From: Verrucomicrobiota bacterium
GTDB taxonomy: Bacteria > Verrucomicrobiota > Kiritimatiellia > Kiritimatiellales > Pontiellaceae
Length of the DNA stretch: 38,205 bases
NCBI GenBank assembly: GCA_024279685.1
Contig: JAJRRI010000081.1
Location: forward strand, 1-38,205
Direction of reading: 5' to 3'
Positions 2,129-24,643 of this stretch are shown in pieces. Position numbers and translations under genes: made by a program. The first letter of the stretch is position 1. The number at the start of each line of letters is the position of its first letter. The notes beneath the pieces are model-generated. The model did not search any database. It saw only the letters and a program-made list of their open reading frames with translations, and was not told the DNA's origin.

Positions 2129-3742
2129 GTGCTAGCCGCTTGCTTCGCCGCGGAGGAAACAGAAGTAGACGATGCTTCCAGCTTCGTTAGGCGCACCGAA
2201 TTTGATTGGGATTCCGCCGGAAACCGCACGGCCATGCGCAAGTATACGGATGGCTTGCTGGCCTCAACCACCGTCTACGACCCGGCATCGTCCCTTAACC
2301 AGATGACGGGTTGGTGGTTTGGCAATACCAACGCCGTTTATCTCTATGATGCCAACGGCAACCGCACCAACAAAACGGTGACGATCACGGACTACACCGA
2401 ACAGACGGAAACCACGGCATATGGATACGACGAAGACAACCGCCTGACTTCCGTTTTCGACATCAACAACGCCGGGAAAACGAACGGATATACCTTCGCC
2501 TACGACTACCGCCCCCGCCGCTACTATCGCGCAACGCCCGCCGAAACCAACCTCTGCGTTTTCAGCGACGGCCTGGCCGTTCAGGAATACGACGCAGCCG
2601 GCACGATTTCGCCGCTCTCCGGAATCTTCATCCTTACCGAGCCGTTGGTGCCCGGCAACCTTTCCGTCGAAAACATCCGCACCGCCGGATACGGCGGCGG
2701 AGTCGGCGGCATGGTCTACTCCATCAAAAATGGCCAGCTAAAGGCCAGCCACTCCAATCATCGCGGCGACGTCGTCGCCAAAACCGACCACCTCGGTAAC
2801 CTCTCATGGTTCGCGAGATACAACGCCTACGGCACCCGCTTCCACGAATTCGGCGCAACCCATGATCGCCAGCGGGGAAACACGAAGGATGAGGAAGAAC
2901 CGCTGGGGTTCATCAACGATGGTATGAGGCCGCGCGACCTTGAGCACGGGTGCTACTTTACTCGTGATCCAGCGGGCTACATCGATACGCCGAATCTATA
3001 TCTCTATGTAAGAAATAACCCCGTAAACCTATTTGACCCAACAGGGTTGGAACCCAAAATGGGAACACCGTTGCTGATCGCGTGGGAGTTCATTCTCAGC
3101 ATTTCCGCTCGGATCGATGATGCCATCCAAGACTGCACTGGCGGATACGGCATGGATGCTTTGGAGATGGATCTGATTGTCAATGGCGTTCCCTACGACG
3201 AAATGGTCGGGGCGGTGGGCGTTGGCCTTGTTAGAGCCAGCAAGATCATCACCAAAACAGATAAGGTGCTTGATTCCGTGGACCTGGTTTCCGACACCTC
3301 GCGGGGATTGAAAACTGCCGCATCAAAAGGCGATGAAGCTGCCGGGGTAACTACTAAGTTGAATAAGGCAGAGACTCCTTCAAGTGTAGCAACAAAAGCG
3401 ACTCAACCTAGTCCCCAGCAACGTGGGCGCATAAACGAAGCAAAAGTTTTGGATGGTATCGGAGAGACTAAAAACACGCAGAAATTTAAAACCTCTCAAG
3501 GAAATACAATTCCTGACTTTGTGAATGACTCCCAGATAGGAGAAATCAAGGATACAAAAAGGGTTTCAAATACAGCACAGCTACGGGCGCAAAAAGAGGC
3601 AGCTCAGGCTAGTGGACGAGAACATGTAACAATTCCTGGGGATAACACGACCGTATCCAGACCTGCGACCGAAGGAACAACGGTTGTTCGTCGCGACGAC
3701 ATTGGGCCAGCTCCCGTCGAAGATACCACAACCACTGATTAG
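2129..3742 (+). CDS. RHS repeat-associated core protein (N-terminally truncated) with C-terminal Tox-REase-7-like nuclease toxin domain
   Basis: YD repeats and RHS core (DLEHGCYFTRDPAGYIDTPNLYLYVRNNPVNLFDPTGLE), followed by GRINEAKVLDGIGETKNTQKFKTSQGNTIPDFVNDSQIGEIKDTKRVSNTAQLRAQKEAAQASGREHVTI with PD...(D/E)xK-type layout (IPD...EIKD...Q). Confidence 0.85.
   Translation: MLAACFAAEETEVDDASSFVRRTEFDWDSAGNRTAMRKYTDGLLASTTVYDPASSLNQMTGWWFGNTNAVYLYDANGNRTNKTVTITDYTEQTETTAYGYDEDNRLTSVFDINNAGKTNGYTFAYDYRPRRYYRATPAETNLCVFSDGLAVQEYDAAGTISPLSGIFILTEPLVPGNLSVENIRTAGYGGGVGGMVYSIKNGQLKASHSNHRGDVVAKTDHLGNLSWFARYNAYGTRFHEFGATHDRQRGNTKDEEEPLGFINDGMRPRDLEHGCYFTRDPAGYIDTPNLYLYVRNNPVNLFDPTGLEPKMGTPLLIAWEFILSISARIDDAIQDCTGGYGMDALEMDLIVNGVPYDEMVGAVGVGLVRASKIITKTDKVLDSVDLVSDTSRGLKTAASKGDEAAGVTTKLNKAETPSSVATKATQPSPQQRGRINEAKVLDGIGETKNTQKFKTSQGNTIPDFVNDSQIGEIKDTKRVSNTAQLRAQKEAAQASGREHVTIPGDNTTVSRPATEGTTVVRRDDIGPAPVEDTTTTD
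2165..2188 (+). repeat. 24-bp direct repeat copy 2 within RHS coding sequence
   Basis: Identical to 29-52. Confidence 0.85.
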
Positions 3743-3757
3743 AGGAGATACAAACCA

Positions 3758-4213
3758 ATGACAGCCAAAGAAAATGTTGAGAAGTTGATGGATGAGTTGA
3801 TCCCATTTGCTAGGAAGATGATTGCTATCGAAGGCGAGTTTTATCCGTATGGTGGATTTATCAATGCCACAGGAGAGATTGTGCATGTAGGAGTTGAAAA
3901 AGATGATGAATATCCCTCTAGTGCGGAAATGGAGAATGACCTACAAGCTACATTTTATCGCATGGCCAAGTCAGAAGAATGCATAGCAACGGCAATTGTT
4001 GCGAATGTGCGTGTAATTCCCCCTGGAGAAAAAAAAGCATATGATGCAATAAGAGCCTCTCTGAATCACAGCAACGGTTATTCTGCGTTGATTTTCTTAC
4101 CATATGTAGTTTCTGAGAGTGGGGTGGAGTATTTTCAGCTATTTGCTCATAAAGGAGAGAATATAACTTTCAAGTCGGCAGCCATTGATACGACAGAGGA
4201 GGTCGCAGAATGA
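3758..4213 (+). CDS. Candidate immunity protein for the upstream RHS nuclease toxin
   Basis: 151-aa soluble acidic protein starting 15 nt after the toxin stop codon on the same strand (FARKMIAIEGEFYPYGGFINATGEIVHVGVEKDDEYPSS...). The role is positional inference. Confidence 0.6.
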   Translation: MTAKENVEKLMDELIPFARKMIAIEGEFYPYGGFINATGEIVHVGVEKDDEYPSSAEMENDLQATFYRMAKSEECIATAIVANVRVIPPGEKKAYDAIRASLNHSNGYSALIFLPYVVSESGVEYFQLFAHKGENITFKSAAIDTTEEVAE

Positions 4214-5487: not shown

Positions 5488-8400
5488 TTAAATCACAACA
5501 ACCCGTGCGCCTTTGGCTGAAATAACCACTAATGTGGCCGTTTGAGTTTTTGATTTTGGGAGCATCTTTCGCGCAGCTTTCCTATATAAATTCAGCTGTT
5601 CACTATAGGCCTCGATCACAGCAGCATCGGTTGCCTCGGTAAATTTATAGTCGAAGATCGAAAAACCATCGTTGGTGCGGCATAGCAGATCGATTGTGCC
5701 ATCGATCAGGCGGTTATCATCATGCAAGACGAATGGCATTTCCGGATGAATTTCCAACATATCGCTCGTCACGGTTTGCATGAGCGCGCGTGCTTTCTCG
5801 ATCCGTATTTCAAGAGCTACGGCTGCGGACATTTCAACGCCAAATCCGTGGCACAGGCGTTCGAGCCACGCTCGGATATCGCCGCACCAACCGTTCAGTG
5901 CCACTTGTTCCAGTACGGCGTGGCCGAGCGATCCAATGGCGGATGTGGTTGCGCGTGAGGATGGAGATGTATGCATCTCACCTGTAAGTTCCTGCGCCAG
6001 TTTCGTGGCTGGCATACGCTGAAGTGTCGGGGGCGTGGGAGGGGCGGGGAGCGTTTCTAATGCGGCGGTAAGGCGGCCTGCGGTTGGAAGGATATGCGTT
6101 CCCGTTTGTGGCGATTTGGCCGCTTCGGCGAGGACGGAGTAGGGGATGGCCGGAATCTCTTTTCCGATGAGTGGTTCCATGTATTTAAGCCATCCCGCAG
6201 ACTTTTTTCCCGGCGAGGCGGACGTAATAACGAGATCGCGCGCACGGGTCATTGCCACGTAGAAAAGGTTTTTTAACTCATGGTCGCGTATACAACTCGC
6301 CCGCTTATTGGCCGCTTTAAAGCCCGGAGATTCGGCCTTGGTTTTATCCGGTGCGGTAATCCTGATTCCAAGAGTTGATCGCTCTTCTTCATCGATAAAA
6401 ACCTGTGTAAACTGAGTGTTGGCCTGGGCGTTGAAGCTGATGTCCGGCAAAACGACGACGCGCTGAGTGAGTCCCTTTGAGCCATGTACGGTCATGATGG
6501 TGACCGCATTTTGTGCGGGGTCGAGTAAGGCGGCCTCGGCAACCTGCGGCGGGTTTTTGATCTGTTTGGCCAACTTGCGGGCGACCGTGGCTGGTGTGGT
6601 TTGCGCGCCGCGTTCGTGTTCCCGCAACCAGTCCAGTACCTTGCGTAGGTTAGCGAGCCGTTGGGTGCCGCGTGGCAACCCGGCCTGCAGGGCATCAAAA
6701 CCCGTCTCGTCGATCAACATCCGCACCAACTCCGAGGCCAGCTTCAAGCGCAATCCTGTGCGGTAGCGCTCGACCACGTCGGTTTTCTTGGAATAGTTGT
6801 TCATTAAATTTTCGATGGAGAAACCCTCTTCGCTCCAGGCGAGTTCGGCAAGGGTTTCATCAGAGAGGCCGATCCACGGTGAGCGCAGGAATCCGATGAG
6901 CGAGTAGGCATCTGCCGGATTGGTGATCACATTAAGGAAGAGCGAGACATCGCGCGTCTCTTGCCGGGCAAAGAGGCCGCGCCCTTTTCCACCCAGGGTG
7001 TATGGGATTCCTGCGTGGCGCAGTGCCTGTTCCAGGGTGGATTGATGTGTTGTACGGCGGAGCAGGATGAGGACATCGGAGTAGCGATAGCGATTCGTTG
7101 TGTCCGTAGGCCGGAAGGTGCCTGAATAACGGAAATGAGGTTGCCATTCGCTGGATGCGTTAACGAGTAGGTGGATTCGATTGGCGACCGCTTCCATTTC
7201 TGCGGCGACCTTTTCTTGTTTTGGCTCGTCGGCGAGCGCCTCGTCTGGGGCGAGAAATTCGACACACGCTTTTTCTCCGACGGTTTCTATGTTGGATTGC
7301 AGATTTTCGTTTTCGGAATAGTCTTCTTTTCCGTAGACCGAAGCGAAGAGGGCGTTGACTACGTCGAGAATGGGCTCCTTGCTCCGATAGCTAGTTTTCA
7401 ACGTCTTCTTTTCTAGGATGTCGGCAGCAAGGTCAGGCATTACCCGTGGATCGGCGCCGCGCCAGGTATAGATGCTTTGCTTTTTGTCGCCGCAGATAAT
7501 TAAGTATGTTTCGTTGCGCCATAAGGCTCGAATAAGTTGGTACTGGACGCGAGAGGTGTCTTGCACTTCATCGACAATCACATAGTCAAATTCCGGCTGA
7601 GCGATTCCCGTTGTTAGTAGGTTGGCGGCCATCTGAAGTTGGTCGTCGAAGTCGACGGTATCCATGGCGTGCTTGCGTTGTTGGAATTGTTGGGCGACGG
7701 CTTGGACGTAACGGGCAAAGGCTTGGGCCGCAGGGAAACGTGCGCGGTAGGCAACCCCGTCTTCGACCGCTTCTTTGAGCGCCCAAAAATCATCCGAGAT
7801 TTCCTTGGCTCCGCCGCGACCAAATTTTTTAATGCCTAGTTCATTCAATCGGCTGACTAAAGCCTCGGCCTCGTCTGTTTCCTGTAGGCCTTGCTGGATA
7901 AGAGCGAGGGCGGCGCCCACGGCAGGTGTAATTTTTGGGAGGGCTTGAATACGCTGGACGATCAGCTCGAACTCAATTCGCGTTGCGATCGGGGCTGGCG
8001 GAGGGAGCATTTCTTCCGCTTGTTCGAGCGAGATCCCTAGACTGCTCGCTTGCGAAATCAGGTGGGGAACGGTTTCGGTGATGCTGCTGCCAAAGCCCCC
8101 GCCGCTTCCAATCAGGTGTGCGCCGGAGCAGAAGGTTTTAAAGTTGGCGTCGGTTTCTAACCGGGTCAGTAGTTCGTTGTGGGAAATTTGGTCGAGTAGA
8201 TCCTCGCGGTCGTCGCCCGTTAGCACGGAGAATCCGGGCGACAATCCGGCCTCCAGCGCATGCTCGCGTAGCAGGCGGGTGCAATAGGCATGGATGGTTC
8301 CAATGGGCGCGGAGGGTAGATGTGCCATCGCAGTAATCGCTTGTTCGGCGAGTTGTCCATCGTCGGCCGACTCGGCACGGTGGCGAGCCTGTAATAACTG

Positions 8401-11541: not shown

Positions 11542-12717
11542 CTATGCCGCTCCGGCCTTAGGTTCGGCGTTCTTTACCGGCAGGACCATTTTTGAGTCTA
11601 CCTTCTTAAAGGGCAGGCTGATCGTAAGTGCGGTAACATTGCTTCTTCGATATTCGAGATGAACGGTTCCATCCATCATTTGAATATAACGCTGGGCGAG
11701 CGAAAGCCCAGACTGCAACTCATTGATCTCGTTGTCCTCTGTACCGAAAACTTGAGAGAGTCGTTCATCTTCTTTTGCCTTTCCGGTGTACGCCAATTCG
11801 AAGGTAATGGAAACGGAGTCGCCTTTTTCTGATTGATGCGCAGCATGAAGACCCAGCCTTCCTTTTTCAGTATGGGCGAGGGCGTAGCCGAGTACGATTT
11901 CGAGTACCTTTCGAACCTTTTGTTCATCAGCTCCCACGAGTTTGGGTAAGTTGTGGGCTGATTGGTACTGTGCGTAACTCACCGCGAAGAAAAGTTTTTT
12001 GGTCTTGGCTCGTTGGGTAAATTGATGATCAAGGTCATGGATAAGTTCGTGTAAATTACACGGGCTGTATTTCACGTCGCCCGATTCATCGGCCACATGA
12101 CTGAGTTCTTTTCGATAGTTCATGGTATCGATCAAGGTGCGGCAACTCCGGTTGATGATCTCCAGATTGCGTTTTTGTTCACCCGTAAGGTTCTCGGCGG
12201 TGATGATTGCCGCGACAGATTGAACCACCGGATCGAGCGATGTTTGGATTGTTTCCGTAAATTCATCGACGGTCTTGCTGTTTTCTTGATTGGCCACCTG
12301 AGCTTCAGAAAGGTTTTTTTGCAGCTCAGCCTGCCGTTGTTTCAAGTTGGAAATATCGTTTACGACGGCAAGAACCAGCTGCTGTTCTTCGATCTGAATG
12401 GTACTTAAGGACACGAGGCCTTGGAACGATAGTTTGTCGGCTTTCAGGAAGTTCCACTCAAAACTGGCGTGCCCTGTTTTTAAGGCCGAATGTAGCTGAT
12501 CGTTGGCCATGTCGGAGGAAGAGGTGTTTCCTGGTTGTTGCGCGGGAGAAAGCATCGCGATTGTTTTTCCTATTAATGCTTTGGCGGTTTCTTCACCAAA
12601 TAGATGGGCGGCGGCTAGATTGGCGGAACCAATTTCCCCGTTCTTTGGATTGATTTGGAGGAAAGCATCGCCCGATGATTGGAAGAGAGTTCGGTAGTAC
12701 TTTTCCTTTTTCCGCAA
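11542..12717 (-). pseudogene. C-terminal PAS + degenerate histidine-kinase-like module, probably the 3' part of the gene at 12831..15716
   Basis: PAS-like YYRTLFQSSGDAFLQINPKNGEIGSAN...; HATPase-like fold with GLSLAQRYIQMMDGTVHLE. The reading frame stays open upstream through KELKEFQLAFDASQSNIDALIEKNTAEFHQQIEQHTKNKTEL to the frameshift. Confidence 0.75.
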
Positions 12718-12830
12718 TTCAGTTTTATTTTTCGTGTGCTGCTCGATTTGTTGATGAAACTCCGCTGTATTTTTCTCAATGAGTGCATCGATATTACTTT
12801 GGCTTGCATCAAAGGCTAGCTGGAATTCTT

Positions 12831-15716
12831 TCAGCTCTTTTCGGCCGAGGCGCGATGGCTGATTTCGGTCTTCAGGTTTGCAGAAAGTGTTTGAATTGTT
12901 TTTTCAAGTTCGGTGCCCTGTTTCCCAAGAAGCTCTTCCTGTTGGAGAAGATCGCGTTCGGTTTGTTTGAGCGCTTTTACTTCACTCTGTAGGGATTTGG
13001 TTGCCTTTGAAATGAGTTGAGCCTGCTCTGTTTTTTCCTGATCAAGATGTTTGTTGGCCTCGGATAGAGCGGCCGCTAATTTTTCTTGTTCCTTGATGGC
13101 TTGGGTTAGTTCTGTGGATTGGGTTTTGGCTTGGACCTGGAGAGCTTCTTTTTCTTGTTGAAGGTCATTAGCTTGTTTGCGTAATCGGATTTCCGACAGA
13201 CGAATTTCCGCGATGTTTAAATTAAGTTTCTGTGTTTCGTGCTCAACCAATTGACTTTGGCGGGTACTCAATTGCTCAAATTTTTGTTCGGAGTGTTTCT
13301 TTTTGACCTCCGCTTCCTCACGCGCTTGGATTTGTTGGTTATTTTCCTGAGCCTTTGTTTTCAGCGCTTTTTCAAGTTCTTTGATCCGTCCATCTAGATC
13401 TTTTTCTTGCTGACGCAGGGCTTTCTCGCGAATTTGTTTTTTGGCGAGTTCTCGTTTGAACGTTTTGGTCTCCTGTTCGATCCGCTCATTGAATTGCTGT
13501 TTAAGCTCATCAAGTTCATCCGTATTCTGAATTAACTTTGTGGCCGCAATTTCCCGCTCGCCGACTTCGTGCTCGAGCTCGATCGCGTGCTGTTCGGTAA
13601 GTGTTTGGATACGTTCTTGTGCTGTTTTTAGTCGGGCAGCCACTTTCTTGAGCTGGTTTTCTGCCGTTAAACGGGCGGAGTGCTCGATGCCGATTTTTTT
13701 CTTATGGATTTCGGTGAGTTGGGTCGATACTTGTTTGTGCTCTTGTTTAGTCGATTTTAGATCTTGTTGATAGGTATTCAATTCGACTTGGCTGATTTCA
13801 AGAAAGGCCTCGGCCTGTTTGTGGAGGGCGATTTCCTCTTGGAGTTGTTTGTCACGACTGGCGGAGAAGATTTCAATTTTTTGAAGCTCATTTTCTTTGA
13901 TTTCGATGAGTTCTTCCCACTTTTTGCGTTTATCGGTTTCTTTTTCAAGATCTTCTAAGCGAGCCGCGAGTCGTGTTTCAAGTTGTTTTTGGTGAGTTAA
14001 TAGCGTCGCTTCATTGCGCCGCAATAATTCTTCAGTTTGTTTGCGCTCGCGGAGTTGTTCTTGGAATTCGTGCTGGCGATTATCGAGTTCGGCTTCGCGG
14101 ACATGTAGTGTTTGATTGGTATTTCGCAGGGTGATCGTTACTTTAGCGTATTCACTTTTTGATTTTTCAAGTTCATCGGTACGGTGTTTGAGGTGTTGCT
14201 CAAGTTGCTGGCGTTCGCGCTGAACCAATTCTTCTTTCGATTTGCGATCGCTGATTTCGAAGGAGAGGCCGACGGTGCCCTCAACCAGCCCGTCGTCGGA
14301 GACAAGAGGGATTTGAAGGGTTTCCATCCAGCCTGATTTATTACGGGTTTCGTAGGGGCGCTCGATCCGACTCAATTTGCCGGACTTCATAACGGAAATT
14401 GCATTTTTATCGTGGTCGCGAGAGGTGGCAGGCATAACCTCAAAAATGGTTTTCCCGATCCAATCCTGTTGCGGAATGCCGGTTCGGTCGGCCAACTTTC
14501 GGCTGGCATAGAGATAGCGGCACCGCGTGTCTTTTACGTGAACGTCGGCGGGCAAGGCATCGAGAATACGGTGCATGAATTGAGCCTGACTGCTGAGCTC
14601 TTCTTGTTCGCGCCGTTCTTGGCTGACATTCCGCTGGGCACCGCGGATGCCGACGAGGGTCTTGCCTTCGACCAGGCCGATTACATGATTAATGAGGTTG
14701 AGTCGATTGCCACGTGGATCTTGCCGAACGCTTTCAACCGCGGCTAATTTGTAGTTTGAGGTAATCAATGTCTTGATCGCATCGTTATTTTTAAACGGTC
14801 CGCAACCGCCGGAGAGTTCGTTAATTCCTTTGCCGATCAGTGATTCAACGGATGTGCCGTATAATGCGGCGAAGGTTTCGCTACACTCGATAAGTTTCAT
14901 TTTTTCCATGATCGTTGCTGCCATTTTATCGGCGGATGCGTTCAATGGAATAGGGGGGTCAGCGGCTAGGTGATAGTAGCCCTCGACCGTCTCGTCGACG
15001 AAGCGGGCAAGGCGGAGGGTCTCCGCTTTTTCTAAACGTTGTTCTTCGTGAAAAGGGGTTACATCCGAAATCCATCCAATATAGCTCTCAACCTCCTTGC
15101 GTTTATTGAGCACCTTGTTTGCCCGGCAGGCCACATGGGTTTCATCGTCTTTGGAGTTCCGAAAGCGGAAGTTGAGCGAAAGAGGGGTGTCTTCTTCGAT
15201 AAAACTTTTCCACGCTTGGTCAAAGCGTTTGCGATCATCGGGATGAATGGCGCTTTGGAAGCCTTCCTTCAGCGCTTTTTTCGGATAGAGGCCGGAGAGT
15301 TCTTGAAGGCTGGAGTTAATGTAAGTGCACGTGCCTTCCAGATTCATCTGGAACATTCCGATCTGGGCATCGAAGAGAATATTCTGATAGCGGGTCGTCG
15401 TTTGCTTAAGATCCTGCTGGGACTTTTCGAGAGTCTGGTTGGTTTCGGTCAGATGTTCGCGGGTCGTTCCAAGTTCGGTGATCATATCTTTAAGCTGTCG
15501 GTTGGCCGCATTAAAACGCTGTTGAAAGAGGAAGAAAAGAATAATGGAACAAATCAGGAGTGCGCCGACAATGAGAAAGGCCGTCATGCTCATTTCAACC
15601 GGGAAGGTGGATTTCACCGAGTTGACCATTTGGGCATGGGTCACTTCCGGCCACAGTGTGGCCAGTGCCATTCCTGCAAAGGGGAGGACGGATTGTTTTC
15701 TTCGCTTCATTCTCAT
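12831..15716 (-). CDS. Multi-PAS sensor protein with signal/TM region and long coiled coil (5' part of a frameshifted gene)
   Basis: TM FLIVGALLICSIILFFLF; PAS domains (YQNILFDAQIGMFQMNLEGTCTYINSSLQELSG; MHRILDALPADVHVKDTRCRYLYASRKLADRTG); long Q/E/K-rich coiled coil ending ISHRASAEKS*. Confidence 0.85.
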   Translation of the reverse strand: MRMKRRKQSVLPFAGMALATLWPEVTHAQMVNSVKSTFPVEMSMTAFLIVGALLICSIILFFLFQQRFNAANRQLKDMITELGTTREHLTETNQTLEKSQQDLKQTTTRYQNILFDAQIGMFQMNLEGTCTYINSSLQELSGLYPKKALKEGFQSAIHPDDRKRFDQAWKSFIEEDTPLSLNFRFRNSKDDETHVACRANKVLNKRKEVESYIGWISDVTPFHEEQRLEKAETLRLARFVDETVEGYYHLAADPPIPLNASADKMAATIMEKMKLIECSETFAALYGTSVESLIGKGINELSGGCGPFKNNDAIKTLITSNYKLAAVESVRQDPRGNRLNLINHVIGLVEGKTLVGIRGAQRNVSQERREQEELSSQAQFMHRILDALPADVHVKDTRCRYLYASRKLADRTGIPQQDWIGKTIFEVMPATSRDHDKNAISVMKSGKLSRIERPYETRNKSGWMETLQIPLVSDDGLVEGTVGLSFEISDRKSKEELVQRERQQLEQHLKHRTDELEKSKSEYAKVTITLRNTNQTLHVREAELDNRQHEFQEQLRERKQTEELLRRNEATLLTHQKQLETRLAARLEDLEKETDKRKKWEELIEIKENELQKIEIFSASRDKQLQEEIALHKQAEAFLEISQVELNTYQQDLKSTKQEHKQVSTQLTEIHKKKIGIEHSARLTAENQLKKVAARLKTAQERIQTLTEQHAIELEHEVGEREIAATKLIQNTDELDELKQQFNERIEQETKTFKRELAKKQIREKALRQQEKDLDGRIKELEKALKTKAQENNQQIQAREEAEVKKKHSEQKFEQLSTRQSQLVEHETQKLNLNIAEIRLSEIRLRKQANDLQQEKEALQVQAKTQSTELTQAIKEQEKLAAALSEANKHLDQEKTEQAQLISKATKSLQSEVKALKQTERDLLQQEELLGKQGTELEKTIQTLSANLKTEISHRASAEKS

Positions 15717-15768
15717 TTGTAGATACCTCGGACAAATTTCTTAGGATCTTTTTGCTGGAGCCGGGTTT

Positions 15769-16917
15769 TTATTCGCTTTTCGCCGGGCGCAGTAAAAAGA
15801 GAGCCGCACTAAAGAATACAATGTAGCCGGCAAGTGGAGCGGCCGTGTCTTTCGTTTCCGGGGCTCCGGATTCATCGTTTGTGCGTGTCGAGGAAACCGC
15901 TCGGTTTGATTCCGTGGACTTCATATCCTTGAGCAAAGACTCAAGCCGAGAGGTCTGGGCCCCCGCATTCGACTTGGGTGCATCGGTGGCCGTTGGAATA
16001 GGCGAGGATTTAGTTTCGGCGGCGTTCTGGATGTTCGCAAGCAGTGCGGGGGTGGAGTGGGGGTCGACCGAAATTCGGGCTTGCATGAAAATCATGTCCC
16101 GATGGAAAATTGGGGTCATAAGCTCGCACCCCTGTGCCGCCGAGATCCGTTTTTCAGAAATCATTTTTGAGATGATGTTCTTTTTATGTTGGATGCTCAA
16201 TGCGGAGTTAATTGTTAATTGCCCATCGTCACCGATAATGATCTTACGGCTTGAATCCTCAAGAAAGGCCTCGAATGGGTTGGTCTTGACGTCGATATGT
16301 ACCGTTCCGCCCATAATATGAAGTTCGGAAACTCCGCCTTTTTTGGCTAAGGTTTTTAGATCCAGCCCTTGGATACGGTAGACCGATTGGTCGCGAATAA
16401 AGATCTGTCCAGAGCCGACCCCATTATTTCCGATGGTTAATTTTCCAGAAACTGTCGCGTGGTCTTTCAGTGTAACGGATCCCTTGGTCGCGGAGTTTCC
16501 AAATGATTTCGCTGCGAGGGCGATCTGCCCATTCAAGGAGAGGTTATCACTGATCGTTAGGTTGGCATGACCCGTAGAGGAAGCGGGGATATTTACGGTA
16601 CGCTTGTGTTCGATCGGGCTCCACATATTAATGTTTCCGTTCCCCTGGAGGAAAAGGTCCTGGCCGTAGAGCATCATCCCATTGTCGAGTTCAACGGTGC
16701 TATTCACGACCACGACCGCATGGGGGCTACGGAAGTGTACCGACTCTTCACCCATCGGAACGTGTTTGAGTTTCCATTTATAAGGATCGCTCCAGTCGGA
16801 CTTCGTTGCGTCGCCGCGCCAGAGATTGATGGATTGTGCCGAAGCGGAGATGGCCACGCCATAGACTGCGGCGAGCATTAGTATGCGATTGAGTTGGATT
16901 TTATTTTTCATGTTCAC
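15769..16917 (-). CDS. Secreted beta-strand-rich surface protein with C-terminal hydrophobic anchor-like segment
   Basis: Signal peptide ILMLAAVYGVAISASAQS; WRGDATKSDWSDPYKWKLKHVPMGEESVHF resembles the start of autotransporter-associated beta-strand/PEP-CTERM-type proteins; C-term AAPLAGYIVFFSAALFLLRPAKSE. Confidence 0.7.
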   Translation of the reverse strand: MNMKNKIQLNRILMLAAVYGVAISASAQSINLWRGDATKSDWSDPYKWKLKHVPMGEESVHFRSPHAVVVVNSTVELDNGMMLYGQDLFLQGNGNINMWSPIEHKRTVNIPASSTGHANLTISDNLSLNGQIALAAKSFGNSATKGSVTLKDHATVSGKLTIGNNGVGSGQIFIRDQSVYRIQGLDLKTLAKKGGVSELHIMGGTVHIDVKTNPFEAFLEDSSRKIIIGDDGQLTINSALSIQHKKNIISKMISEKRISAAQGCELMTPIFHRDMIFMQARISVDPHSTPALLANIQNAAETKSSPIPTATDAPKSNAGAQTSRLESLLKDMKSTESNRAVSSTRTNDESGAPETKDTAAPLAGYIVFFSAALFLLRPAKSE

Positions 16918-16970
16918 GTCTCCCTCATTGTCGTCGTTGTTCTACTTTTATAATTCGATGGGAGGATAAA

Positions 16971-16986
16971 AGCAGGATGCATGCCT
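16971..16986 (-). promoter_or_regulatory. Sigma-54-like -24/-12 element driving the minus-strand operon
   Basis: Minus-strand AGGCATGCATCCTGCT against consensus TGGCAYRNNNNTTGCW; GG/GC spacing exact; lies about 54 nt upstream of the 16917 start. Confidence 0.45.
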
Positions 16987-17069
16987 TGTTTGGAAAGAAT
17001 GGTTTTTGAGGGAATGGGGTGAGGAGATCTCAAGGGGTAAATTATAAAAATTAACGGAGGCCGTATCTG

Positions 17070-17085
17070 TGGCATGAATGATGCT
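17070..17085 (+). promoter_or_regulatory. Sigma-54-like -24/-12 element driving the 17126 cluster
   Basis: TGGCATGAATGATGCT against TGGCAYRNNNNTTGCW; one mismatch; about 40 nt upstream of the ATG. Confidence 0.55.
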
Positions 17086-17125
17086 TCAATGGTTGCATCT
17101 GAATTAAACCCAAACGGGACACGAC

Positions 17126-17872
17126 ATGAAAAACGAACAGAACTTTTTATATAGCAAAGACGCTAAAACGCTACAGGTTCCCTATGCTGAATATACCGAG
17201 CTCATGAAAAAGTCGGAAGAAGCTCAGCACCTCCTAAAGGTAAAAGGGACCGTACTCGCGGATCTCCAGCAGTTTATCGGAGGCGCCCCGGCTGCGGCAC
17301 TGCCTAAAGCCAACCCGGCTCCGAAATCCAAGCCAGCCCCTAAAGCCAAGCCGGTTCCGAAGACTCCACCGCCGCCAGCGGCTGAGACGGCTCCGGCTGA
17401 GGAATCTAAATCGGAAAAGGTTTCAATCGAATTTTCGACGGACACGCCTGAGACTCCCGCACCCTCGCGGGGTGAGATATCGGATATTCCACCGATCAAG
17501 AAGGATATTATCGGGCATTTCAACAAGCTTGATAAGTCGGGACGGTTGCTCAATATCTTTAAGCAATATTATACGTGCTTGAATGAGGCTTGTGGCGGAA
17601 CCGTTCGCGTGACGATGAAGGACGGTTTTTGCAGCCTCTGGAATTATGATGAATGGGAAGAATTTGCATTTATGGATATTTTCGAAAATCTTTTGCGGAT
17701 CACAATCGACCCACGGTACACAGATGCACTCAAAACACTCAGTCTTTGTGAAGTGCCTCGTCTAATTTCTAGCCGCCGGAACGTAGTTTCTGTGCAGGTT
17801 GACAATCTTAATAATGTAGTACTCGATGTTCTTGCCAAGGCATTTGCCGAGGTAGGCCTACAAGTCAAATAA
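17126..17872 (+). CDS. Hypothetical protein: short N-terminal helical domain, Pro/Ala/Lys-rich linker, C-terminal globular domain
   Basis: ORF with linker NPAPKSKPAPKAKPVPKTPPPPAAETAPAEE between two ordered-looking regions. Confidence 0.8.
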   Translation: MKNEQNFLYSKDAKTLQVPYAEYTELMKKSEEAQHLLKVKGTVLADLQQFIGGAPAAALPKANPAPKSKPAPKAKPVPKTPPPPAAETAPAEESKSEKVSIEFSTDTPETPAPSRGEISDIPPIKKDIIGHFNKLDKSGRLLNIFKQYYTCLNEACGGTVRVTMKDGFCSLWNYDEWEEFAFMDIFENLLRITIDPRYTDALKTLSLCEVPRLISSRRNVVSVQVDNLNNVVLDVLAKAFAEVGLQVK

Positions 17873-17885
17873 CGTGGAGGGGACC

Positions 17886-18944
17886 ATGAAAAACGAAGCT
17901 CAAAAAAATATATTGTTTCTGGGGATAGCCGGAGTTGTTTTCGTTGCACTGAATGCAGCGATTCTAATGGCCACAAAAAATGGCCATCTTGCACCGATTG
18001 AAAATCTAACGCTCTGGGGCGCATTCGTTGTCTTGAATGTCAGCTCGCTGCTCTGGGCCGTCAGCTTACTAGGCCTGCACCCGCTGGTCATCGCTTTTTC
18101 CTATGTGATGGGAGGTTTCGTTGCCTTTTTAGGGGTTCGATTACTCCCGGAAGCGAATGTCGCCGAGGTCACTACCGCTGGAGCCACCTATGGCGCATTT
18201 GGTGCGCTAGCGGTCGGGCACGCCATGACCAAAGTTCGATTGGTTTTCTTCAATAAGAAGCAGGTGCCTTTCATTTTTGTGATCGCCGCACTTTTGCTCG
18301 TAGATGGTTTTCTCAACAGTAGCGTATCGGGCGCAGGATTCGGTGTGATTGTACATGCACTGGTGCTTCCATTCGTGGTGGCAGGCATAGTGGTTGGCCT
18401 TATATGGGCGGGATTGGCCCGTATGGGTGTCGGGGAAGGTTTTGTTCCTGCGTCGATTGAATCTAAGATCGGAGTGTCGAAAGAAAAGCCGGTCGAGGAC
18501 GAGATGGAGCAGATTATGTTCAAAGTTCCTGAAGCCCATGAAGCAGCCGAAGAGCCGGCCGCGGAAGTGGTAGCACCCGAACTTGAGGTCGAACCCGTGG
18601 CACTGAAGGTTGTTGAAAATCCACCTCAGCCGGAACTCCGGGTCGAGGAACCCCTAGAGGACGAAACTAATTTCTTTCCGCTGGAAATCGATAAGGAGGA
18701 CGAGCTCATTCTTCCAGAAGAAGACCTATCTGCTGTAGCTGAACTATTTGAAGTAATGGAAAGCACCCCCGAACGTATTGAAGAATCCATTCCGGTGTTA
18801 GAAGAAAAGAGTGAGGTTTCCGTCGAAGAACCCCCCGTATCTGATGCGGAATCGACTCCGGAACCTGAAGAGAAAAAGGATAGTTCCTCAGATTGGCTCA
18901 GTAGCCACATGGATCTATTAAATAACATAAAAAAAGCAAGCTAA
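17886..18944 (+). CDS. Hypothetical polytopic membrane protein with long acidic C-terminal tail
   Basis: About six hydrophobic segments followed by an E/D/P-rich tail. The likely start MKNEAQK (17886) follows the RBS-like GGAGGGG; the listed ORF starts at 17874. Confidence 0.8.
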   Translation: MKNEAQKNILFLGIAGVVFVALNAAILMATKNGHLAPIENLTLWGAFVVLNVSSLLWAVSLLGLHPLVIAFSYVMGGFVAFLGVRLLPEANVAEVTTAGATYGAFGALAVGHAMTKVRLVFFNKKQVPFIFVIAALLLVDGFLNSSVSGAGFGVIVHALVLPFVVAGIVVGLIWAGLARMGVGEGFVPASIESKIGVSKEKPVEDEMEQIMFKVPEAHEAAEEPAAEVVAPELEVEPVALKVVENPPQPELRVEEPLEDETNFFPLEIDKEDELILPEEDLSAVAELFEVMESTPERIEESIPVLEEKSEVSVEEPPVSDAESTPEPEEKKDSSSDWLSSHMDLLNNIKKAS

Positions 18945-18969
18945 ACTAAAAAAATAAAGGAAAATAGTT

Positions 18970-19134
18970 ATGAATAATGATAATGTACAGATATTCTATG
19001 ATGGAAATGGAAGTGCGGTTGCTGTTCAAATGCCGATCTCGGACTACGAGAAAATTATCAAAAGTGCAAAGGAAGCCATGGAAACTAAAGATGCGATTTC
19101 GAAAGCAGTCGCGGCCCTTCAAGGGGTGCTTTAA
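18970..19134 (+). CDS. 54-aa protein, apparent paralogue of the N-terminal domain of the 17126 product
   Basis: Hand translation MNNDNVQIFYDGNGSAVAVQMPISDYEKIIKSAKEAMETKDAISKAVAALQGVL*; preceded by AAGGAAAA; aligns with MKNEQNFLYSKDAKTLQVPYAEYTELMKKSEEAQHLLKVKGTVLADLQQFIGG. Confidence 0.7.
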   Translation: MNNDNVQIFYDGNGSAVAVQMPISDYEKIIKSAKEAMETKDAISKAVAALQGVL

Positions 19135-19156
19135 ACCTTGGGCCATCCACGAGGTT

Positions 19157-19183
19157 CCACTGTCGGAATCATTCCGGCAGTGG
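19157..19183 (+). terminator. Stem-loop after the 54-aa gene
   Basis: CCACTGTCGGA-ATCAT-TCCGGCAGTGG, 11-bp stem with one G-U pair. Confidence 0.4.
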
Positions 19184-19211
19184 AGACCCTCTCTTCCCAA
19201 CCCATTTAAGC

Positions 19212-19243
19212 GCCTGTATCTTTAGATGCGGGCATTTTTTTTT
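19212..19243 (+). terminator. Rho-independent terminator of the 17126-19134 cluster
   Basis: GCCTGTATC-TTTA-GATGCGGGC (9-bp stem with G-U pairs) followed by A and nine T. Confidence 0.8.
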
Positions 19244-19380
19244 CACTAGAGAGAGAATTCCTATCCTGATTACACCACATGAGTATGCAATATATGGAGA
19301 TTGAAAATGTTTTTCTCCAGACGTACAATTCCGCCTGATGCGGGGTTATCGTAGTTGGAAATACATGAGCGGATGGGCGG

Positions 19381-20973
19381 ATGATAAAAAGGAGAGGGTT
19401 TAAGTCAGGATTTATGGGGGTTGTTGGCCTCCTGCTGGCAGCGGATATTTCCGCGGGTCAAGGCCCCGCCAGCGTAAAAATTGACCGGCTCGTATTCGCC
19501 AAACTCGATGAGCTGGGCATACCGCCCTCCAAGCCATGTTCCGATGAAGTTTTTCTGCGACGGGTCTATCTCGATATGATCGGCACACTGCCGACTCGGA
19601 AGGAGGTCCGAAATTTTCTTTCAAGCCGGAGCACCAACAAACGTGCCAAGCTGATTGACGAGCTTTTCGAGCGAGGCGAGTTCGCCGATTATTGGGCGAT
19701 GAAGTGGTGCGATCTCCTGCGAGTCAAAGCCGAATTTCCCAGCAACCTCTGGCCCAATGCTGTGCAAGCCTATCATCGTTGGGTGCGCACCGCGCTCTAT
19801 ACCAATATGCCGTACGACCAATTTTCCCGCACCCTGCTCACCGCCAGCGGTAGCAATTTCCGCGAGGCTCCGGTCAATTTCTATCGTGCCGTTCCCCAGC
19901 GCGAGGGCACTGAGATCGCCCAGATCGTGGCGCTCACCTTCATGGGCATGCGCACCGACGGATGGGAGCGAGACTCGCTACTGGGCATGGCCGCCTTTTT
20001 CGGCAATGTGGGGTACAAAAAAACCGCCGAGTGGAAGGAAGAGATCGTATTTTTCGCCCCCACCAAGCAGTTTCTTGACCCCGGAACGCAGCAACCGATC
20101 GTGCCGCGACTGTTCGGCGGATCCGAGGTCGTAATTCCTGATGGGTACGACCCGCGCGAGATCTTTACCGATTGGCTCGTCGATAGCCCTCTGTTCGCTC
20201 AGAGCATGGTCAACCGCATTTGGTATTGGCTGATGGGCCGCGGCATCGTGCATGAACCCGACGATTTTCGCCCCGGAAACCCGCCACAGAATCAAGCTTT
20301 GCTTGATCTCCTTGCCAAGGAACTCGTCGTAAGTGGTTACGATTTACGGCATATTTATCGCATCATTCTCAATTCAAAGACCTATCAACTTTCTTCTATC
20401 CATAAGGAGAGAAATCGCTTGGACGAGGCCAACTTCTCGCGCTATATCGTGCGGCGGCTCGATGCTGAAGTTCTGATCGATGCCATCTGTCAAATTACGG
20501 ACACCACCGAATCCTATTCCAGTTCCATCCCCGAACCGTTTACCTGGATTCCGAAAAATCAGCGCTCCATCACGCTCGCCGATGGGAGTATTACCAGCCC
20601 GTTTCTCGACCTATTTGGTCGTCCACCGCGCGACTCCGGTTATGCGTCCGAGCGGAATAACACTCCATCGTCCGCTCAAAAGCTGCACTTGCTCAACTCC
20701 ACCCACATCCAGAAAAAGATCCGAAAGAATCGGCAACTCGTGGGCTTCCAGCGCAAAAAAACAAAAAAGGGCGCCGAGGTAAAGTGGGTCTGGGTTTCCC
20801 CGGAAGAATCGATTGAAAGAGTCTATCTCTCCATCCTATCGCGCTATCCCACAGAGGAAGAGATCGCCGCAATTTTAGCCTACAGTCAAAAGAGCGGGTT
20901 GAACCGGTGGGAGGTCTCGATGGATATGGTTTGGGCCTTGTTGAATACGAAGGAATTTATTTATAAGCATTAG
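19381..20973 (+). CDS. DUF1549/DUF1553 domain-containing protein, no CxxCH cytochrome motif
   Basis: IDRLVFAKLDELGIPPSKPCSDEVFLRRVYLDMIGTLPT (DUF1549) and VNRIWYWLMGRGIVHEPDDFRPGNPPQNQALLDLLAKELV (DUF1553). Confidence 0.9.
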   Translation: MIKRRGFKSGFMGVVGLLLAADISAGQGPASVKIDRLVFAKLDELGIPPSKPCSDEVFLRRVYLDMIGTLPTRKEVRNFLSSRSTNKRAKLIDELFERGEFADYWAMKWCDLLRVKAEFPSNLWPNAVQAYHRWVRTALYTNMPYDQFSRTLLTASGSNFREAPVNFYRAVPQREGTEIAQIVALTFMGMRTDGWERDSLLGMAAFFGNVGYKKTAEWKEEIVFFAPTKQFLDPGTQQPIVPRLFGGSEVVIPDGYDPREIFTDWLVDSPLFAQSMVNRIWYWLMGRGIVHEPDDFRPGNPPQNQALLDLLAKELVVSGYDLRHIYRIILNSKTYQLSSIHKERNRLDEANFSRYIVRRLDAEVLIDAICQITDTTESYSSSIPEPFTWIPKNQRSITLADGSITSPFLDLFGRPPRDSGYASERNNTPSSAQKLHLLNSTHIQKKIRKNRQLVGFQRKKTKKGAEVKWVWVSPEESIERVYLSILSRYPTEEEIAAILAYSQKSGLNRWEVSMDMVWALLNTKEFIYKH

Positions 20974-21020
20974 GAAATAAAGGCCTTGGGCATTAGGCTA
21001 TGGGCTTTAGGAGGCGGGCT

Positions 21021-22340
21021 ATGAAGTTGAATGGACAGGTTGAACTTTCGCGGCGGAATATGTTGCTGGCCGCTGGGGCTAGTGGGCTGGCGCTGGGTGC
21101 GCCGTTGCAAGCGTCTGCCGTGCGACCGGCCAAAGCCAAATCCGTTATCCAAATTTGGATGTGGGGGGGGCCTGCACAGCTCGATACCTTCGATCCGAAG
21201 CCGCACGCTGGGGCCGACTATTGCGGCCCGTACACGCGACCGATTTCCACCAATGTGGACGGGATTCAAATTTGCCAAAAACTACCATTGCTCGCGAAGC
21301 AGGCTGATAAATATTCCATCATTCGGAGCATGACCCATGGCGTGAACGGACATGAAACGGCGTCGTACATGACTCAGTCTGGCCGACCGGCCGGAACCGG
21401 TGATGTCTTCCCTTGCGCGGGCGCGGTTGTCTCGCGCTTTAAGGGATATGACGCGGGATATAAAGGATTACTTCCCCCGTATATTGTACTCACGAAACCG
21501 CAGGGTCGCTTCTCCGAATCCGGATTTATGGGACTGCGCTACAAACCCTTCGCCACCGGCGGGAAGCCGAGCGCTCCGGTCTTTACTGTGGAAGGTATTG
21601 TTCAACAAGGGATCTCGGAAGTTCGCCAGCGCGATCGCCGGAAGCTGCTTAGCGAATTGGAAACGTTGGGCCGTAGAATGAAGGGAAACCTAGCCTTTGG
21701 GAAGATGGATGAGTGCGAAGAGCAGGCCTATGAACTCATCCTGGGTGATGCCGGAAAGGTATTCGATATCAAAGGGGAGGATGCCAAGCTGCGGGAGCGT
21801 TATGGCCGTAGCGACTTTGGTGCATCCTGTTTAGTGGCCCGTCGGTGAGTGGAGCGCGGCGTGCCATACGTCACCATCAACTACCAGGGCTGGGATACGC
21901 ACAAAAAGCATTTCGACCTGATGAACGGAAAGCTTAACGAGCTAGATCGTGGCCTCTCCACGTTGCTCGAAGACCTAGCCCAACGCGGGTTACTCGATAG
22001 CACCGTGGTCTGGGTGGGGGGCGAGTTTGGACGTAGTCCGAAAATCCAGTGGGATGCTCCCTGGAACGGGGGTCGTAGCCATCACGGCGCGTGTTTTTCC
22101 CATCTGATTGCGGGCGGGGGTTTTTCTGGCGGGCATGTGATTGGTTCCTCCGATGCAAAAGGGGAGGAGGTGGCTGATCGGCCCGTCTATCCGTGGGATT
22201 TACTGGGCAGCATGTACGAGCAGCTCGGCATCGATACGACCGCGCGCCTGCCGCACCCGCAGGGGTTGGATATGCGCGTGAGTCCGACTGAGGCGGATGG
22301 GGTTACGATCGGCGGCCGCCTCCGGGAAATTATGTCGTGA
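21021..22340 (+). pseudogene. DUF1501 domain-containing protein interrupted by an in-frame TGA at 21846-21848
   Basis: ORFs 21000..21848 and 21849..22340 share one frame and read GASCLVARR*VERGVPYVTINYQGWDTH across the stop. Likely start 21021 with RBS AGGAGG and twin-arginine-like SRRNMLLAAGASG. Confidence 0.85.
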
Positions 22341-24643
22341 ACGCTGCATTGAAACTTTTCGCCAGTCTACTTATTGTGGGAACAGCTTGGGCCGAACCGT
22401 CGCAGATTGGCTATGCTTTTCCGGCGGGCGGAAGGCAGGGAACGACTTTTCGCATAATGATCGGTGGCCAGCATCTTCAAGGCGCGACTCAGGTCTTTAT
22501 GAGCGGCGAAGGCGTCACCGCCGAGATCGTTCAATTTAGCCGTAAATACGAGCTAAAGCGCCTCCGCAATATCTGGAACAGCCGAAGGAATACCTTGGCC
22601 GCGATGAAGGAAAAGGATGGTAAGGCACTGGAAAAACTTAAACAGAAGCTCGAACGATTCGAGCGGCAACTCTCCGTGGCCGAGCTTCCTTCAGGAGTGG
22701 ATATTGATCAGTGGGCTTCCGTACGGAAAGCTTATAACGTGGGCGGCAAGGAGCAGTTTAATCCGCAAATTGCGGATCGCCTACGGGTCGATGTTTCGAT
22801 CGCTAAGAATGCTCCGCCCGGCCCGCGTGAGCTGCGTATCTACACTCCATCCGGCCTCTCGAACCCCATCTATTTTCAGGTCGGAACGCTGGCTGAAGTG
22901 CGCGAGGTTGAGCCGAACGACGATCATATGACCCCGAATCTCCAAGAGGTACGCCTACCGACGGTCATCAATGGTCAGATCCGCCCAGGGGATATCGACC
23001 ACTTTCATTTCAAAGCGAAGGCGGGGCAATCCATCGTGGTGGATGTTGGCGCGCGGAAGATCATTCCTTACCTTGCGGATGCGGTGCCCGGCTGGTTTCA
23101 AGCGGTTGTGGCGCTCTACGACGAGGAGGGCAACGAGGTCGCCTATCAGGACGACTATAAGTTTAATCCCGACCCCGTGCTCTTTTTTGAAGTGCCCAAA
23201 TCCGAGATGTACACGCTCTCCATCAAGGATTCCATTTACCGGGGTCGCGAGGACTTTATCTACCGCATTGCGATCGGCGAGCTCCCCTTCATTACCCATA
23301 TTTTTCCGCTCGGCGCGCAGCAAGGGCGTGCGGTGGACATTGCACTCGGCGGAAAAAACCTGCCGCGCACCCGCCTGAAAGGAAAGCTACCGGACGAGGG
23401 GATTGAAGTGCGCCATATCTCGGTTAAAAAATCAGGCTACCGTTCGAACGCCATGCCCTTTGCCATCGGCGATCTGCCGGAAACGTTCGAGGTCGAACCG
23501 AACGCTTCGCCGACCGAGGCACAGTCGGTCGAACTACCGCGGGTCATCAATGGTCGCATCCAGCAGATCGGCGATATCGATGTCTTCAGTTTTGAAGGAA
23601 AGAAGGGCGAGACGATATCGATTGAGGTGACCGCGCGACGGCTCAACTCGCCGCTCGATTCGTCTATTACCCTCACCGGGCCGGGGCTGGAAAAGCCGAT
23701 CCGCAACGACGATCGGGTGGAATCCGGCTCCGGACATCTCTTTCTTGGTTCTGGGCTGGTGACGCATCACGCCGACTCGTACTTACTGCATCAACTGCCC
23801 TCCACCGGCACTTATTACGTGCAGATTGGTGACACCCAGGCGAAAGGGGGAGACGATTATGCCTACCGCCTGAGTATCGGGGCGGCGCGTCCCGACTTTA
23901 AATTGAACATAGAACCTTCCGGAGTGCAGATCGCGCCCGGCGGAACGGCCGCCTTTAGTGTACGAGCGCTTCGGCTGGACGGATTTGAGGGTAAAATTTA
24001 TCTCGATATGAAAGCCCTCCCTGCAGGGTTTGAAATGAGTGAGGCGGCCATCCCGATGGGCTCCGACATGACGCGCTTCACCCTCACCGCACCGCGACAA
24101 ATTTCTAAGAAATCCTTTAATCCGCAGGTTACTGGAATGGCCCTCATTGGCGACGATTATGTGGAGCATCCGGCCCTGCCGGTGGATGATCAGATGCAAG
24201 CGTTTCTTTATCGCCACCTCGTTCCCGCACAGGAGTTGGTGCTTGCTCCGGTTGCGAAGCCCCCGGCGCTTTCATTTTCGGTGGAGCACTCGAGTTCCGA
24301 GCGGATCGAGTTGCCGCTTGGCAAAGAAACAATACTCTTTGTGACGGGGCACTTCCAACCGGGAATCAAGGGAGCACGGTTGGTACTCGACGATCCTCCT
24401 GAAGGAATTACGGTTGTGAAAAGTTGGATCGGTAGGAAGCAGGCCCAGGGAAAGACGGCGGATGGAAAACCGAAGTTTGTGAAGGGCGCGGCGCATGGGC
24501 AGATTAGGCTAAAGGTGGAAGAACCATTGGCGGTTGGTTTTAAGACCGACCTTGTGGTGGTGGCCGTGGTGAAAAATGGACGGAAAGAAACTCGTTATAC
24601 GGCTCCGGCGATTCCCATCGAGATCGTTAAGCCGGCATGGTAA
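22337..24643 (+). CDS. Secreted protein with two bacterial pre-peptidase C-terminal (PPC)-like domains
   Basis: Signal peptide; EVEPNDDHMTPNLQEVRLPTVINGQIRPGDIDHFHFKAKAGQSIVVDV and EVEPNASPTEAQSVELPRVINGRIQQIGDIDVFSFEGKKGETISIEV; overlaps the DUF1501 stop. Confidence 0.85.
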   Translation: MNAALKLFASLLIVGTAWAEPSQIGYAFPAGGRQGTTFRIMIGGQHLQGATQVFMSGEGVTAEIVQFSRKYELKRLRNIWNSRRNTLAAMKEKDGKALEKLKQKLERFERQLSVAELPSGVDIDQWASVRKAYNVGGKEQFNPQIADRLRVDVSIAKNAPPGPRELRIYTPSGLSNPIYFQVGTLAEVREVEPNDDHMTPNLQEVRLPTVINGQIRPGDIDHFHFKAKAGQSIVVDVGARKIIPYLADAVPGWFQAVVALYDEEGNEVAYQDDYKFNPDPVLFFEVPKSEMYTLSIKDSIYRGREDFIYRIAIGELPFITHIFPLGAQQGRAVDIALGGKNLPRTRLKGKLPDEGIEVRHISVKKSGYRSNAMPFAIGDLPETFEVEPNASPTEAQSVELPRVINGRIQQIGDIDVFSFEGKKGETISIEVTARRLNSPLDSSITLTGPGLEKPIRNDDRVESGSGHLFLGSGLVTHHADSYLLHQLPSTGTYYVQIGDTQAKGGDDYAYRLSIGAARPDFKLNIEPSGVQIAPGGTAAFSVRALRLDGFEGKIYLDMKALPAGFEMSEAAIPMGSDMTRFTLTAPRQISKKSFNPQVTGMALIGDDYVEHPALPVDDQMQAFLYRHLVPAQELVLAPVAKPPALSFSVEHSSSERIELPLGKETILFVTGHFQPGIKGARLVLDDPPEGITVVKSWIGRKQAQGKTADGKPKFVKGAAHGQIRLKVEEPLAVGFKTDLVVVAVVKNGRKETRYTAPAIPIEIVKPAW

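Follow-up and report, generated by a model that had tools for sequence, protein, structure and literature searches.

A Pontiella-specific locus with divergent sigma-54-type promoter elements and a duplicated RelB-like domain: a possible envelope assembly

Introduction

The antitoxin-type RelB-like module (PF18506) typically dimerises. Its profile matches C, the smallest product of the locus described here, and the N-domain of the larger product A is modelled as the hairpin and helix of such a module. Unlike a RelB-like antitoxin gene, however, C is single-copy and syntenic, no toxin gene was found with it, and its domain is duplicated as the N-domain of A. The predicted fold of the A C-domain recalls the MmcQ/YjbR (PF04237) and YdhG/DUF1801 families, the CyaY-like fold and the double wing of the T4 MotA C-domain. 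It differs from MmcQ/YjbR, YdhG/DUF1801 and MotA in being net acidic, in being fused to a linker and a RelB-like domain, and in having no sequence-profile match to them. For MmcQ/YjbR proteins, a DNA-binding role has been argued (PMC7641849).

On the opposite strand the closest described systems are regulatory. PAS sensor histidine kinases share with f0 the PAS domains, membrane anchor, coiled coil and GHKL-like C-terminus, but f0 lacks the catalytic and phospho-acceptor residues in all aligned relatives. In PEP-CTERM systems with PrsK-PrsR, sigma-54 regulates surface proteins (PMC1569441). Comparably, f1 is exported and C-terminally anchored, lies behind a -24/-12 element and adjoins the transmembrane histidine-kinase-like f0; it has, however, neither a PEP motif nor a PEP-CTERM model match, f0 is a pseudokinase of another architecture, and A-B-C has no counterpart there. 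One article presents sigma-54 as controlling the bacterial exterior (PMC3162934). We analysed a window of 38,205 nucleotides, meaning the whole stretch of DNA under study, together with related genomes.

Results

Distribution and gene order

Profile searches for A, B and C were run on 240 genomes of the class, covering 108 genera. The carrier genus was assigned to Pontiella (Kiritimatiellota), which contributed 28 genomes (27 besides the window genome). The 107 other genera contained none of the three genes, save for one marginal match to C (E 0.007). Within the genus, A was present in 18 of 28 genomes, and A, B and C were all present in 13 of the 14 genomes that were at least 90% complete, the exception being G014. 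Very small genomes (1.1–1.3 Mb) were among the members without A-B-C. The order A-B-C held at every contig-spanned site in the genus with the sole exception of G026; in G020 a contig end falls inside A. Inheritance within Pontiella was vertical, syntenic and single-copy. Thus, the three genes, originally predicted to form one strand-consistent unit, do co-occur in other genomes, and in the same order. The features of the extended locus are as follows.

17126–17872, forward strand: A, 248 aa; N-domain, linker and C-domain
17886–18944, forward strand: B, 352 aa; six membrane helices and a long tail
18970–19134, forward strand: C, 54 aa; free-standing RelB-like domain, homologue of the A N-domain
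19212–19243, forward strand: intrinsic-terminator-like hairpin and T-run ending A-B-C
17071–17086, forward strand: sigma-54-type -24/-12 element GGCATGAATGATGCTT (GG-N10-GC), towards A-B-C
16970–16985, reverse strand: sigma-54-type element GGCATGCATCCTGCTT (GG-N10-GC), towards f1-f0
15769–16917, reverse strand: f1, 382 aa; signal peptide, exported repeat domain and C-terminal transmembrane helix (TM)
12831–15716, reverse strand: f0, N-terminal part; membrane anchor, PAS domains and long coiled coil
11542–12717, reverse strand: f0, C-terminal part; last PAS-like stretch and degenerate histidine-kinase region

Downstream of the terminator-like hairpin lies a DUF1549/1553 – DUF1501 – PPC-domain operon (window 19381–24643), which was syntenic with A-B-C in 10–11 loci. 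We did not count it as part of the unit: it has no sigma-54-type element in the window and is of a widespread type. Its DUF1501 gene (window 21000–22340) has an in-frame TGA that breaks up what is in relatives a single ORF of ~443 aa; this is either a pseudogene or an assembly error.

Coding evidence and terminator

The A, B and C reading frames were all found on the forward strand at their predicted coordinates. B starts at ATG 17886, preceded by GGAGGGG; a GTG at 17874 falls within this Shine-Dalgarno region. Against the nearest relative, dN/dS was 0.12 for A, 0.12 for B and 0.05 for C. By part, it was 0.06 for the A C-domain, 0.07 for the membrane part of B, 0.15 for the A N-domain and 0.19 for the A linker. 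The purifying selection on each of the three supports their status as genes.

A strong terminator had been proposed at 19212–19243. A hairpin, GCCTGTATC-TTTA-GATGCGGGC-ATTTTTTTTT, does occupy 19212–19233 and is followed by a run of nine T; it is good individually, but terminator-like matches in the region occur at chance frequency (4 found vs 3.1 expected). The stretch from 15500 to 21000 had no Rfam match.

Divergent sigma-54-type promoter elements

The intergenic region between f1 and A contains two conserved blocks and little else, and both blocks fit the pattern GG-N10-GC. These two sites were the only exact matches to the pattern in the window, where 0.15 would be expected, and the background is ~0.02 per 300 bp per strand. 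Searches for a sigma-54 pattern with N5 spacing returned nothing or chance matches; it was N6 spacing (GG-N10-GC) that gave the two sites. The forward element was present in 18 of 18 loci, 52–72 bases upstream of the A start, and the reverse element in 16 of the 17 loci with f1. Judged from these motifs, A-B-C and f1-f0 may use sigma-54.

The divergent -24/-12 elements tie A-B-C and f1-f0 together. The original three-gene boundary was too narrow: the unit also takes in f1, f0 and the two divergent promoters of sigma-54 type, and the conserved part reaches leftwards to 11545 or beyond.

A and C share a RelB-like domain

C was the most conserved gene of the three, 72–91% identical within the genus and 54 aa in all members; the A N-domain is far less constrained in sequence. 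Even single-sequence BLAST connected some A proteins with C (best E 0.004). In a single hhalign comparison, C and A N-domain profiles aligned with a score of 37.4 (probability 94.8, E 5.5e-8). The highest control scores were 17.7 over 300 column shuffles and 18.0 over 300 within-class shuffles, and the reversed profile scored 10.6. The resemblance first seen between the 54-aa product and the A N-domain was therefore kept in profile comparison, at 37.4 vs at most 18.0 in 600 shuffles, and on this sequence evidence the homology is real and far above chance. The common core is Q-hydrophobic-P-x-x-[DE]-Y.

Residues 5–36 of C matched the start of the Pfam RelB-like model (PF18506) in 15 of 15 members (best E 5.9e-7). 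Scores straddle the gathering cut-off of 27 bits, with the window C at 25.1 and members scanned singly at 24.5–27.1. A weaker match was to PF02604 (Phd/YefM). C has a net charge of -2 to -5. PDB sequence searches with A and C profiles gave chance matches only.

In six Pontiella genomes the dcw cluster encodes, between an ftsL-like gene and ftsI, a protein of 44–45 aa that carries the RelB-like hairpin motif too (VNVMYDENGNAVRVQMDFDLYQWL):

L097, 7591–7725: small RelB-like protein
L098, 7487–7621: small RelB-like protein
L099, 7406–7540: small RelB-like protein
L100, 6875–7009: small RelB-like protein
L101, ~6752–6886: small RelB-like protein
L102, 7308–7445: small RelB-like protein

We set this protein aside as a functional clue; it occurs in only a subset of relatives and is absent between ftsL and ftsI in G005, G011 and G014.

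The model of A had a mean pLDDT of 71.8, with both ends confident. The N-domain (residues 1–52), originally described as helical, is not purely so in the model, where a short beta-hairpin precedes a long helix (20–51). Residues ~57–118 form the disordered P/A/K linker, and the C-domain (residues ~119–248) was modelled as alpha-alpha-beta4-alpha-beta-alpha. The nearest solved structures to the C-domain in foldseek were YjbR, DUF419, YdhG/frataxin-type proteins and T4 MotA (prob 0.87–1.00, with E values of only 4e-3 to 0.1), including 2fki (E 4e-3, prob 1.00) and 9t2w (E 3.1e-2, TM-score 0.62). The best TM-scores, by target length, were 0.62 for the YdhG/frataxin type, 0.52 for YjbR and 0.52 for MotA, and the best BFVD match was a DUF5655 protein (E 1.1e-3). 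The model thus predicts a CyaY/YdhG/YjbR-like fold. Among 16 A members there was no sequence-profile match to MmcQ/YjbR or YdhG/DUF1801 at E<=10. The C-domain was net negative in 16 of 16 members (-1 to -8). Because it is net acidic, we prefer the view that it binds a peptide or protein rather than DNA.

B is a polytopic membrane protein with a variable tail

Six helices are predicted in B, as first proposed, and positive-inside reasoning places its N-terminus putatively inside. The acidic tail of ~150 aa in the original prediction measures 167 aa in the window, with a net charge of -35, but its acidity is not universal: the tail is variable, mostly acidic, and +1 in two relatives. Two peptides are conserved in it, FFPLEIDK and the C-terminal DWLSSHMDLLNNIKKA (consensus DWLxGHLDLLNKLK). 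Searches of Pfam, NCBIfam, PHROGs and PADLOC with A and B yielded no usable family match, and the best foldseek match of B was only the rhomboid GlpG (E 1.0, prob 0.38). The view that the products belong to no known family thus holds for B, whose membrane fold matches nothing, but not for C, which is RelB-like at the Pfam threshold, or for the predicted fold of the A C-domain.

The divergent operon f1-f0

The f1 protein has a repetitive exported domain, which is probably beta-helical, and a single C-terminal TM followed by Arg; it belongs to no family found. As a PEP-CTERM candidate it has the TM and the Arg, but no PEP motif and no TIGR02595-type model match, and only a sub-threshold T5SS/PEP-CTERM repeat was seen. 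The distribution of f1 is that of A-B-C, except that it is lost in G007 and shortened in G026. In G007 (L155, 1–800) there is neither f1 nor a reverse sigma-54-type element between A and f0.

In most relatives f0 is one ORF of ~1390–1540 aa. It is split by a frameshift in the window assembly (11542–15716) and is also split in L030. Its HATPase_c match fell below cut-off. On alignment inspection, the H-box His, N-box Asn and G1 motif required of an active sensor histidine kinase were missing in every aligned relative; with these catalytic and phospho-acceptor motifs missing, f0 looks more like a scaffold than an enzyme. Proteins resembling f0 also occur alone in the sister family, where none had A, B, C or f1 as a neighbour. 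Thus f0 is the older component, with A-B-C and f1 added in Pontiella.

A natural deletion in G026

G026 (L154, 6478–11067) has a reduced locus from which A and C are gone. Its f1 is cut to 119 aa (signal and TM), and its f0 ends at 1020 aa, before the pseudokinase. B has lost the DWLxxHLDLLNKLK helix at its C-terminus but keeps its six helices and FFPL-ID. The two promoter elements survive, and the forward element now stands 66 bases upstream of B. In this one genome A, C, the end helix of B and the f0 pseudokinase were lost together, which may be the best clue to contacts among them; the pattern could also be generic decay.

Discussion

We found no known system containing A, B and f1, and rate the combination as new, matching no described kind. 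Our preferred reading, held tentatively and at somewhat less than even confidence, is that A-B-C and f1-f0 form a Pontiella-specific, sigma-54-switched envelope assembly, with A and C joined through their shared domain and docked on the B tail. A-B-C would supply its cytoplasmic and inner-membrane half, and the exported, membrane-anchored f1 with the membrane-anchored PAS/coiled-coil/pseudo-histidine-kinase f0 the other half. B would be the membrane anchor, its disordered cytoplasmic tail bearing two docking peptides. A would act as the soluble adaptor: its CyaY/YdhG-like C-domain would bind a protein or peptide partner, probably f0 or the tail of B, and its RelB-like N-domain would assemble with its own copies and with C. 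C, third in the same transcript, would be the domain without the cargo part and so might set the stoichiometry of A assembly or cap it. The original suggestion that a free copy of the domain might act in A assembly as a competitor or regulator fits the shared antitoxin-type module and the finding that one genome has lost A and C together.

Counting towards such an assembly are the strict co-occurrence and order, the homology of C to the A N-domain, the two conserved B-tail motifs, the G026 deletion and the divergent promoters; from these we infer the physical contacts, the membrane topology and a sensory or structural role. Against it count the reliance on monomer predictions, the absence of f1 from G007 where A-B-C persists, and the greater age of f0. 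A fuller version is doubtful: that an antitoxin-type dimerisation domain was taken over for assembly control in an undescribed sigma-54-switched Pontiella envelope machine, built into A, present as a free 54-aa capping protein C, docked on the polytopic B, and connected with both an exported protein and a pseudokinase PAS scaffold.

The same domains could instead point to antitoxin-derived regulators, with C and the A N-domain as RelB/Phd-type DNA-binding dimers, the A C-domain as a YjbR/MotA-like double wing, A and C acting on their own divergent promoters, and B tethering A to the membrane. The RelB-like and weaker Phd/YefM matches of C, the foldseek matches to YjbR and the T4 MotA DNA-binding domain, the DNA binding argued for MmcQ/YjbR (PMC7641849) and the position of A beside the conserved promoter region are consistent with this. 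However, the A C-domain and C are net negative, unlike DNA-binding double wings, the TM-scores favour the YdhG/frataxin type, and the upstream region has no conserved block besides the -24/-12 elements; we consider such regulators improbable. We give very little credence to a diverged type II toxin-antitoxin module in which C (and the A N-domain) is the antitoxin and another product the toxin. The near-cut-off RelB-like score of C is what speaks for it, but Pfam, NCBIfam and PADLOC found no toxin family (RelE/ParE-type) in A, B or C, the vertical, syntenic, single-copy conservation is unlike that of mobile loci, B spans the membrane several times and has a conserved tail, and C comes last in the order.

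Lineage-specific orphan modules are common, and A, B and C might be three such orphans on one transcript that form no complex, their shared domain being an old duplication without present interaction. Small RelB-like proteins do occur elsewhere, as in the dcw cluster of six relatives, but the perfect co-occurrence of A, B and C where contigs allow, their fixed order and their joint loss or shortening in G026 make this unlikely. It is also quite unlikely that C serves B as a dedicated small subunit, seated on the C-terminal helix of B, and is not a partner of A: C is the most conserved gene and disappears with that helix in G026, but A was lost in the same event, which therefore does not tell A from B as the partner, and C is homologous to A. 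The near-invariance of C could also come from a partner unrelated to the unit.

If the envelope-assembly reading is true, the module, which is core, vertically inherited and regulated and has three sequence-orphan proteins, would be an entry into envelope biology unique to the Pontiella lineage, in a phylum of which little cell biology is known. It would also show an antitoxin-type domain that serves, with no toxin involved, as a module for assembly and is supplied as a free copy too. If the interactions fail, the module is an ordinary set of lineage-specific orphans. It is amenable to testing: Pontiella is cultured and type strains exist, with P. agarivorans NLcol2 a putative carrier.

Elsewhere in the window, positions 2129–4213 encode an RHS-repeat protein with a C-terminal Tox-REase-7 domain (36.9 bits, cut-off 25). 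The gene is followed by a 151-aa ORF that had no family match and is a candidate immunity protein.
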